Source: Dysgonamonadaceae bacterium
GTDB taxonomy: Bacteria > Bacteroidota > Bacteroidia > Bacteroidales > Dysgonomonadaceae
Length of the DNA: 50,550 nucleotides
Reading direction: 5' to 3'
Assembly (NCBI GenBank): GCA_029975415.1
Contig: JARKPE010000019.1
Span: forward strand, 1-50,550
Shown here: in pieces, positions 5,228 to 7,320 of the stretch
How positions within the stretch are numbered: the first letter of the stretch is position 1
Layout: every line of letters begins with the position of its first letter
The notes under the pieces: generated by a model
Told to the model about the DNA's origin: nothing
The model's input: only the letters and a program-made list of their open reading frames with translations
Database searches by the model: none
Made by a program: the position numbers and the translations under genes

Positions 5228-5276
5228 GAGCAATTTCTAATTGGGTTGCTCGAAAATACCGAATCACTTATCTTTA
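5228..5276 (+). promoter_or_regulatory. Promoter with overlapping palindromes for the ygbA operon
   Basis: A near-consensus promoter is visible: TTG at 5246-5248, a 20-base spacer, and TATCTTTA at 5269-5276 (one mismatch to TAnnTTTG). Two dyads overlap its upstream part: GAGCAA at 5228-5233 with TTGCTC at 5246-5251, whose right arm covers the -33 TTG, and inside it the perfect CAATT-TCT-AATTG at 5231-5243. This is a plausible operator, perhaps for the regulator encoded second in the operon. That is inference. Confidence 0.45.
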
Positions 5277-5299
5277 CATTTACTTCTGTCTGAATTGGC

Positions 5300-5617
5300 A
5301 TGAACGAATCGGAGAAAAAAGTTGTAGCCATCATGATCCATATATATTGTCGCTCCAAACACGGCAATGACACCTTATGTTACGAATGTGTGGAACTAAA
5401 AAACTATGCGTTTTCGAGACTCGAACATTGTCCTTATGGATGTAACAAACCGACCTGCAATACTTGCCCCATTCACTGCTACAGACGAGAAATGAAAGCA
5501 CGCATAAAAGAAGTAATGCGTTTTTCCGGACCTCGTATGCTGTTTGTTCATCCAATCGAAACACTGAAACATTTTCGTAAAGCACACAAACGAAAAAGAT
5601 TTTTTACTCGAAAATAG
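5300..5617 (+). CDS. YgbA-like nitrosative-stress protein (YgbA_NO family)
   Basis: Small cytoplasmic protein of the family named after a nitric-oxide-inducible promoter; in enterobacteria ygbA belongs to the NsrR regulon. The 105-residue product has eight cysteines (residues 17, 27, 30, 44, 48, 53, 56, 60), including LCYEC and TCNTCPIHCY, followed by the family block VMRFSGPRMLFVHP. The cysteine pattern suggests an iron-sulfur cluster or another metal site (inference). The ATG at 5300 has a promoter box ending 23 bases upstream. An internal ATG at residue 12 is also possible. The next gene starts 13 bases after the stop and encodes a RIC/hemerythrin-like regulator, which independently supports a nitrosative-stress role. 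The molecular activity is not known to me. Confidence 0.85.
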   Translation: MNESEKKVVAIMIHIYCRSKHGNDTLCYECVELKNYAFSRLEHCPYGCNKPTCNTCPIHCYRREMKARIKEVMRFSGPRMLFVHPIETLKHFRKAHKRKRFFTRK

Positions 5618-5630
5618 CAGTGATGAAAAT

Positions 5631-6527
5631 ATGATGACATTTACAAAAAATGCAATACTGGCTGATATTTTATCGGAACACGTCGAACTAATTCCCATAG
5701 TTCAGCGATTTGGGATTCATTTGGGAGTAGGCGATAAAACTATTTTAGAACTTTGCGAGGCAAACCGATTGAATGCTGATTTCATTGTTACATTATTTAA
5801 TGTGTATATCGATGAAAAATATTTTCCCGAGAAAAAACTTTCATCGTTTGATATTCATCCTGTGATAGATTATTTCAATCACACTATTGAATATTATATT
5901 CGCGACTCGGTTCCCAACATCGAAAAACACTTGAATGCCTTCATCGCTATTAGTGGCGGAACTGATCATAAAGAATTGCAATTATTGCATGAGATTTTTT
6001 TGCAATTCAAAACTGAACTTACACTGCATCTTCAGCAAGAAACGAGCGAATTGGTAAATTACCCACACGAATTATTAAACGATTTAAAAAATATTCTGAT
6101 CAGGCTTGTTTCCGGGTCTTACAACCAGAATTTATGCTATGCCGTGATTTTTTCGATCGACAGTTTGCAGAAAGATTTATTCATTCATAATCGATTGAAA
6201 ACAAAAATTCTTGAGCCGAAACTAAAAGAGCTTAATGAAAAAGAATTAGATGTTTTGAAGCATTCAGCAAATACTGCTAAAGAAAATTCTGAAGAAAAGA
6301 AAATCAAACTTACTCCACGCGAGGAAGAAGTTTTGAAGCTTATTGCTACCGGATATTTGAATAAAGAAATAGCTGATCAGCTCAATATCAGCCTTAATAC
6401 GGTATTGACACACCGTAAAAATATCATTGCCAAAACAGGAATTAAAACCGTTTCGGGCCTTACGTTTTACTGCATTTCAAACGGACTGCTCTCACCAGAC
6501 TTTATTCCTGACAGAATACATAAATAA
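5631..6527 (+). CDS. RIC/hemerythrin-like sensor fused to LuxR-type HTH regulator
   Basis: Predicted transcription regulator of 298 residues. Residues 8-60 resemble the ScdA N-terminal domain of RIC (repair of iron centres) proteins, but the usual CCxG turn is LGVGD, so the cysteines are absent. Residues 75-200 resemble the di-iron hemerythrin-like domain: His84 (NHTIEYY), His100, His113, His120 and His133 with Glu137 in HLQQE. The second half looks partly degraded: where RIC proteins have HxxxE, this one reads HNRLK (His186, Lys190). Residues 226-285 are a clear LuxR/GerE helix-turn-helix (LTPREEEVLKLIATG, then NKEIADQL and TVLTHRKNI). It follows a ygbA-like gene by 13 bases. I infer an NO- or O2-responsive regulator derived from a repair protein. 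ATG codons at 5631 and 5634 are both possible starts. Confidence 0.82.
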   Translation: MMTFTKNAILADILSEHVELIPIVQRFGIHLGVGDKTILELCEANRLNADFIVTLFNVYIDEKYFPEKKLSSFDIHPVIDYFNHTIEYYIRDSVPNIEKHLNAFIAISGGTDHKELQLLHEIFLQFKTELTLHLQQETSELVNYPHELLNDLKNILIRLVSGSYNQNLCYAVIFSIDSLQKDLFIHNRLKTKILEPKLKELNEKELDVLKHSANTAKENSEEKKIKLTPREEEVLKLIATGYLNKEIADQLNISLNTVLTHRKNIIAKTGIKTVSGLTFYCISNGLLSPDFIPDRIHK

Positions 6528-6537
6528 GTTAAAAATC

Positions 6538-7320
6538 ATGAAACGAGATTCAAATCGCAGCTTTCTTGACGTGGCTCACAGCAACTGGGGCGAAATAAAA
6601 TTGCATCAATATGATGCAGTCGTCTTACCTTGGGGGGCCATCGAACCACATAATTTTCATATGCCTTATCTCACCGATTGCATTCTTTCTTACGAAATAG
6701 CAATCGACAGTGCAAATCTCGCTTTCGAAAAATCAGGAACAAAAAATATGGTAATGCCGCCGGTATATTTCGGTTCACAAAATCCCGGCCAATGGAATTT
6801 ACCCTTTTGCATACATACCAATACGGAAACCCAAAAAGCAATTCTTTCGGATATTGTAGATTCGCTATATATACAAGGCTTTCGCAAAATGGTTATCGTG
6901 AACGGACATGGCGGCAATAGTTTCAAATCTTTAGTTCGTGATTTTGCGAAAGCTTATCCCGATTTTTTTATTGTTGTCGTGAATTGGTATGATTTCATTC
7001 CAACAAGCGATTATTTCGATGAGTTTCCCGATGAACATGCCGGAGAACAGGAAACATCCGTCATGCTTTATTATCATCCCGAATGGGTGAAACTCGAAAA
7101 TGCAGGTGAAGGCAATGCTCTCCCTTGGCCAATAAATGAGTTAAACAAAAAAACCGGATGGGCACCTCGAAATTGGAACTATACAACCCGAGACACAGGA
7201 ATCGGAAATCCTAAAAAATCGACACCCGAAAAAGGAGAACGTTATGTGAAAGCAGTTGTCGAGCGAATATCCGAACTTCTTATCGAACTCAATACATTAG
7301 ATTTAAAAACAGATCCATAA
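6538..7320 (+). CDS. Creatininase-family amidohydrolase
   Basis: Metal-dependent hydrolase of the creatininase superfamily, which includes creatinine amidohydrolase, the MftE peptidase of mycofactocin synthesis and ArfB formamide hydrolase. The 260-residue product has the full metal and active-site set: E36-x-H38 and H41 followed by TD (PWGAIEPHNFHMPYLTD), NGHGGN at 122-127, and HAGEQETS at 167-174 with Glu172. An in-frame upstream extension exists, but it would overlap the regulator gene; ATG 6538, 10 bases after that stop, is the natural start. It appears to be the third gene of the ygbA operon. The substrate is unknown; nothing nearby suggests creatinine use. Confidence 0.85.
   Translation: MKRDSNRSFLDVAHSNWGEIKLHQYDAVVLPWGAIEPHNFHMPYLTDCILSYEIAIDSANLAFEKSGTKNMVMPPVYFGSQNPGQWNLPFCIHTNTETQKAILSDIVDSLYIQGFRKMVIVNGHGGNSFKSLVRDFAKAYPDFFIVVVNWYDFIPTSDYFDEFPDEHAGEQETSVMLYYHPEWVKLENAGEGNALPWPINELNKKTGWAPRNWNYTTRDTGIGNPKKSTPEKGERYVKAVVERISELLIELNTLDLKTDP

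Follow-up and report, generated by a model that had tools for sequence, protein, structure and literature searches.

A LuxR-type regulator with a RIC-like domain and a degenerate iron site, encoded beside ygbA in a Dysgonomonadaceae genome

Organization of the locus

The window (the whole stretch of DNA analyzed, 50,550 nucleotides) carries two adjacent genes on the forward strand, which probably form an operon. The first, at 5300..5617, is ygbA, a member of the nitrous oxide-stimulated promoter family (PF11756, YgbA_NO; E 1.2e-38, 132.2 bits against a cut-off of 25), and 13 bases beyond its end begins an open reading frame of 298 codons (5631..6527). The product of this second gene is described below as a RIC-derived, metal-site-less LuxR-type regulator, on the evidence of profile matches, a structure model, the ligand columns of an alignment and the ratio of nonsynonymous to synonymous change. 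Directly downstream lies a gene of the creatininase family (6538-7320, by Pfam), also common to several relatives, and it is followed by genes that by eye resemble methylmalonyl-CoA mutase.

Upstream of ygbA, on the same strand, a promoter-like stretch is found at 5241..5277 (TTGGGTTGC ... TATCTTTAC), so called by the Bacteroidota promoter consensus, and it falls within the region that had been proposed for footprinting. Of 19 loci with a linked ygbA, the window among them, 16 have a TA..TTT(A/G) element no more than 96 bases from the start of ygbA; in the remaining three it is missing or distant. An inverted repeat at 5228..5251 (GAGCAA-12-TTGCTC) was considered as an operator and rejected: the left arm is not kept at the corresponding locus of Seramator thermalis, and the right arm lies inside the promoter-like stretch. 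Inspection of the 19 ygbA upstream regions by eye gave no conserved operator.

Domain structure of the regulator

The protein has three parts. Residues 1-69 (5631..5837) form a ScdA_N-like domain with helices at 10-16, 18-26, 38-44 and 49-60; residues 75-199 (5853..6227) form a putative RIC-type four-helix bundle with a degenerate iron site, delimited by alignments, the AlphaFold model, Foldseek and VIA-align; and residues 226-286 (6306..6488) form a LuxR/GerE helix-turn-helix (HTH). PF00196 (GerE) matches residues 227-272 with E 4.5e-16 (58.7 bits, cut-off 23.5), and the DNA-binding domain of LiaR is 48% identical to it over 61 alignment columns. The HTH that the earlier note had read at 226-285 is intact.

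The N-terminal part matches RIC proteins weakly. The RIC model TIGR03652 (NCBIfam) aligns with residues 11-141 at E 1e-7, although its 32.0 bits are below the cut-off of 204.7, and Staphylococcus aureus ScdA (PDB 9j47) aligns with residues 5-162 at E 1.1e-4. Most bacterial RICs are reported to carry the motif DfCCgG in their ScdA_N domain (PMC9268430); inspection of the first domain of the window protein finds no CC motif, in agreement with the initial description of a ScdA-type domain devoid of its cysteines. Among the Pfam matches listed for the protein there is none to ScdA_N, Hemerythrin or Response_reg. The AlphaFold model (mean pLDDT 85.8) begins with four small helices; a bundle of four more (75-107, 114-135, 146-160 and 166-199), a linker and the HTH follow. 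The alignment for the structure work comprised 42 sequences, the window protein and the proteins of 41 of 80 loci. In a Foldseek search of the PDB the best match is YtfE (E 2.4e-3), with none at E 0.001 or better, and the VIA-align Z of about 12 for YtfE and ScdA is equaled by unrelated helical bundles, which means that it does not separate RIC proteins from common bundles. For these two reasons the assignment rests on sequence, by which the N-terminal part is judged to be of RIC-type ancestry. The fusion of a RIC-like domain to a LuxR-type DNA-binding domain, as first noticed, stands on TIGR03652, ScdA and GerE together.

The closest relative, from Seramator thermalis, is 90% identical, and by its named relatives the window belongs in or near the Dysgonomonadaceae (Bacteroidales). 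Between these two species dN is 0.055 and dS 0.82, and the ratio of about 0.07, obtained from this one pair over all 298 codons and likewise over residues 1-200, indicates that the regulator gene is under purifying selection.

Relatives with and without a complete iron site

In YtfE the six iron ligands are given as H84, H129, E133, H160, H204 and E208 (PMC9268430), and the corresponding columns were read from an alignment in which E. coli YtfE was joined by 100 LuxR-linked RIC-like proteins. The relatives fall into two sets. The first, a clade of 81 rows, consists of the window protein, 78 other loci of an 80-locus set, L034 and L036; two of the 80 (L114 and L117) have no usable open reading frame and are outside all ligand counts, and neither the ligand counts nor the trees include L051-L081, whose genomes are in part those of the named loci over again. 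The second set consists of rows outside the clade. The first 19 of these come from 20 places chosen by E-value among the matches listed (18 loci and one second copy), a choice in which two other loci turned out to be clade members, and 11 further rows are ten proteins chosen for long open frames among the matches listed, plus L182. None was chosen by its ligand state, and all 19 of the first rows, or 30 of 30 with the additions, have the complete set. For tree building, fusions were cut before the HTH; of L100 and L119 the C-terminal 310 and 242 residues were used.

On a tree of 101 rows the 81 clade rows form one group with support of 100/99. The complete-site rows do not form a single clade; on both this and a second, 60-row tree (with the 11 further outside proteins) they surround the 81-row clade, and L037 branches beside it, a pattern that fits a loss of the site in the ancestor of the clade. 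Retention versus loss of the site requires one change on the 60-row tree, while the fused versus split form requires at least four, forced by well-supported branches; these are changes, not necessarily four fusions. Fusion is seen in the proteins of Dysgonomonadaceae type, in three genomes titled Tannerella that are nested within relatives of the split form, and in two groups that have the complete site. Where the genes are split, the LuxR partner has an N-terminal part resembling a receiver domain, yet Pfam lists no Response_reg match in the six partner proteins scanned, and in most of the partner rows compared by eye the position expected for the phosphorylated aspartate is occupied by N or other letters. 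The repeated fusion of RIC-like and LuxR proteins would argue that the two work together.

Several positions are typical of the clade. N96, H100 and R188 are present in all 81 rows against 1, 2 and 3 of the 19 outside, and N187 in 79 against 3. H159 is found in 78 of the 81 and 2 of the 19; both the window protein and that of Seramator have leucine here. N167, also invariant in the clade, is less distinctive, occurring in 10 of the 19 rows outside. From these comparisons the window protein is assigned to a metal-site-less branch with near-invariant residues of its own (N96, H100, N187 and R188), which is now set apart from similar proteins that have the complete site. By the helix boundaries of the model, N96, H100 and H159 would lie near one end of the bundle, with the old iron site about 20 residues further down the helices.

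The same genome also has an intact pair (L031:3392-4685; G000:C117:36391-37684), a six-ligand RIC-like protein of 236 aa and a LuxR regulator of 199 aa, with genes resembling those for ribosomal proteins on one side and an acetate kinase-like gene on the other (names by eye). One genome therefore supplies a test pair with a built-in control, the intact six-ligand RIC/LuxR pair on contig C117 versus the fusion. A requirement for the intact pair in the same cell was considered and rejected: in genome G003 (98% complete) the fusion stands alone among the matches listed, where a match may have been missed.

Gene neighborhood and the link to ygbA

In E. coli, ygbA is described among the NsrR-regulated, nitric oxide-responsive genes, and a mutant retained NO-scavenging activity (PMC5320621). 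The earlier note took this YgbA-like partner as independent support, and a linkage to a nitrosative-stress gene does recur among homologues. The Dysgonomonadaceae clade has 34 fusions (the window and 33 named loci with an open reading frame, including a few metagenome bins that bear other titles), and in 18 of them ygbA lies directly upstream, overlapping or no more than 42 bases away. The 18 belong to several genera, with none titled Dysgonomonas, and the same order is seen in 15 of 31 further fusion loci, which are partly from the same genomes as the 34. Autoregulation is plausible, and the fusion may control its own ygbA operon.

The link is limited in range. Where the title is Dysgonomonas, Tannerella, Parabacteroides, Rikenella or Bacteroidaceae, the flanking sequence examined contains no ygbA, and none of 25 ygbA genes inspected outside the family (of at least 55 matches in a sample of 247 genomes of the order) has a RIC or a LuxR match within 1.5 kb. 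At loci of the Parabacteroides/Tannerella type the pair of the clade ends an operon after genes for a cytochrome of NapC/NirT type fused to an FGE-sulfatase domain, a GFO/IDH/MocA oxidoreductase with a TAT signal and a xylose isomerase-like TIM barrel. These domains were read on one locus (L122:975-4974), and the three genes recur at 33, 34 and 25 of 78 loci compared. Since Tannerellaceae relatives occur in a cytochrome/oxidoreductase operon, nitrosative stress is not a general association of the clade.

Other arrangements were seen in passing. In G013, another genome of the family (contig C11; L182:116-1803), ygbA is 78 bases upstream of a complete-site LuxR/RIC pair whose two genes stand in the opposite order, so that ygbA is linked to RIC/LuxR regulators in a second way. 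Outside the family ygbA is often near small cupin-like or 4Fe-4S ferredoxin-type proteins (by eye; L197, L201, L203, L205, L206, L207, L210 and L211). An NrtR-like regulator gene, with NUDIX and winged-helix parts, directly precedes the fusion in L070 (Pfam) and L071 (by eye).

Two explanations give the ygbA link a different meaning. The adjacency may be an inherited neighborhood of no functional significance, with the regulator acting on distant targets; this we hold to be about a one-in-four matter. Only one sub-clade shows the link, and some other flanking genes (mutA-like, creatininase-like) are also shared there, as this explanation would have it, but the overlaps and short gaps persist from genus to genus although several genera have different genes upstream of ygbA (by eye). 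Slightly less probable is a nitrosative-stress regulator in which the cysteine-rich YgbA or another protein does the sensing and the RIC-derived domain serves for docking. The operon order kept in 18 of the 34 fusions speaks for it, as does the complete-site pair behind ygbA in G013, but such a role sits poorly with the loci and genera just named, in which ygbA and the RIC/LuxR genes occur apart.

State of the iron-ligand positions

When the alignment is anchored on the complete-site relatives, the six ligand columns of the window protein hold I86, H133, E137, V142, H186 and K190. Anchored instead on YtfE, the first column becomes E87; under that anchoring H is found in 10 of the 81 clade rows and in none of the 19 complete-site rows, so it looks like an alignment shift of one residue. 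The window protein lacks some 28 residues that surround the fourth ligand (H160) in the complete-site proteins. V142 is the least certain column because the deletion adjoins it; H146 is four residues past it, and 17 of the 81 clade rows have a histidine within six residues.

The loss extends across the clade, in which 11 rows keep none of the ligands, 56 keep one, 13 keep two and a single row keeps three; that row is the window protein (H133, E137 and H186). The H84 column has N in 47 rows, V in 15, D in 10, I in 7 and other letters in 2; the H129 column is mostly R (46), with H in 13 and other letters besides; and the E133 column has D in 48, G in 16, E in only 2 and other letters in the rest. 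At the H160 column E (33) and D (26) prevail and there is no H, while at the E208 column there is no E and 76 of the 81 rows have a basic residue (R 71, K 5). Only the H204 column is largely retained (H in 70). Pfam Hemerythrin matches the complete-site relative of the same genome at E 8.5e-14 and another at 2.2e-8, one split relative from the clade at only 0.11, and lists no match for the window protein. The RIC model gives 71.8 bits for the complete-site L031 protein, and two members of the clade score 43.9 and 56.6; its cut-off of 204.7 does not separate the groups because L031 misses it too.

The earlier note had assembled a hemerythrin-like site from H84, H100, H113, H120, H133 and E137, and had counted one iron ligand as missing where HNRLK replaces HxxxE. 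All of these residues exist, and HNRLK is present at 186-190, but the first four histidines lie outside the ligand columns and only three of the six positions are filled. Nor could the listed histidines all meet, judging by the helix boundaries of the AlphaFold model, since H84 and H100 are 16 residues apart on one helix, or about 24 Å at 1.5 Å per residue. A site completed by H84, H100, H113 and H120 was therefore discarded: the columns are wrong, histidine occurs at these positions in 12, 81, 2 and 7 of the 81 rows, and the distances along the helices are too great. Histidines in a RIC-like domain are thus no proof of a di-iron sensor, tempting as that reading is.

The residues that remain present a counter-point to a metal-free protein, in that H133, E137 and H186, which fall in the columns of H129, E133 and H204, might suffice to bind a single metal ion. 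A 2-His-1-carboxylate site with one iron, as a private remnant of the old site, is nevertheless very improbable, for the combination is found in one of 81 rows, glutamate at the E137 column in two, and Seramator has leucine in place of H133. The direct di-iron NO or O2 sensor with a LuxR output that the earlier note proposed, with the site completed by other residues, is the weakest reading and scarcely credible: RIC ancestry, the three ligands with H146 near the fourth, and a partner that is NsrR-controlled and nitric oxide-responsive in E. coli (PMC5320621) can be cited for it, but the other three positions hold I or E, V and K, no clade row exceeds three ligands, the fourth-ligand segment is largely deleted, Pfam Hemerythrin is unlisted, and the nearest relative has leucine in place of H133, so that it is contradicted by a loss across the whole clade.

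Proposed origin and function

The explanation we favor, and consider fairly probable, is that the window protein is a one-component regulator, in which a RIC/hemerythrin bundle lacking the di-iron site serves as input and the LuxR-type HTH as output, and which comes from a two-gene system of Bacteroidales. It is most likely a metal-free derivative of a known iron-type system, and it probably does not sense gas through an iron pair. Of the original idea, a repair protein turned gas sensor, the recruitment of a repair-type domain into a LuxR-type regulator is retained, while di-iron gas sensing falls with a ligand set broken in 81 of 81 rows.

The ancestor would have been a RIC-like protein and a LuxR regulator with a receiver-like, though Pfam-negative, N-terminal part, encoded by two genes. 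The iron site would then have been lost once, in an ancestor common to the Tannerellaceae, Rikenellaceae and Bacteroidaceae relatives, and in the Dysgonomonadaceae lineage the receiver-like part would have disappeared, leaving the bundle joined directly to the HTH; the direction of both steps is the presumed one. The bundle may now act as a metal-free switch, by dimerization or by binding of a ligand, through N96, H100, N187 and R188, with H159 in most members.

A broader proposal is more tentative, and we put it at somewhat below even. A RIC-type domain of Bacteroidales may have been turned once into a metal-free signal-receiving module that kept its LuxR partner, with the iron site replaced by N96, H100, H159 (in most), N187, R188 and the change of E208 to R or K. 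It would have switched between split and fused forms at least twice within the clade, and would read a different ligand, feeding into a nitrosative-stress operon in part of the Dysgonomonadaceae. The di-iron sensor idea suits instead the complete-site relatives that are paired or fused with a LuxR protein.

Comparison with known systems

NsrR, NorR and HcpR are regulators that respond to nitric oxide, and they may share a gene theme (ygbA) with the window protein but differ from it in their domains. The likeness to RIC proteins (YtfE, ScdA, DnrN; TIGR03652) lies in the modeled succession of a small N-terminal domain and a four-helix bundle and in remote sequence similarity, whereas the absent CC motif, the three of six ligands, a score of 32 bits against 204.7 and the C-terminal HTH set the protein apart. 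Regulators of the NarL/FixJ type share the intact HTH, with LiaR and VraR as the best PDB matches, but the fusion has no receiver domain, and the RIC-derived bundle stands in its place. The literature listings searched, which took in a minority of the subscription journals, showed no study of the metal-site-less branch, nor any of RIC-LuxR proteins linked to ygbA.

The closest system in print is a hemerythrin-domain protein with the regulator CdhR, and the metal-site-less branch is a variant of this kind of system. The two genes form an operon in Porphyromonas gingivalis (PG1236-PG1237) and, of the same kind, in Bacteroides thetaiotaomicron (BT0519-BT0520), and are fused in Prevotella intermedia (PIN17_RS10465). 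Under iron limitation the P. gingivalis (PG1236-38) and B. thetaiotaomicron (BT0519-0520) operons rise about 7-fold and 16- to 20-fold (all in PMC10434189), and CdhR is cited as an activator of the hmu genes (PMC10101095). Both systems tie a RIC/hemerythrin-type domain to a LuxR-type protein, adjacent or fused, in Bacteroidales. The published one, compared here by its description, is known for induction by iron limitation and for the hmu heme-uptake genes. A complete ligand set, present in all 30 outside relatives examined, is found in none of the 81 clade rows, which have at most three ligands, and it is in part of one family of this clade that the regulator sits with ygbA.
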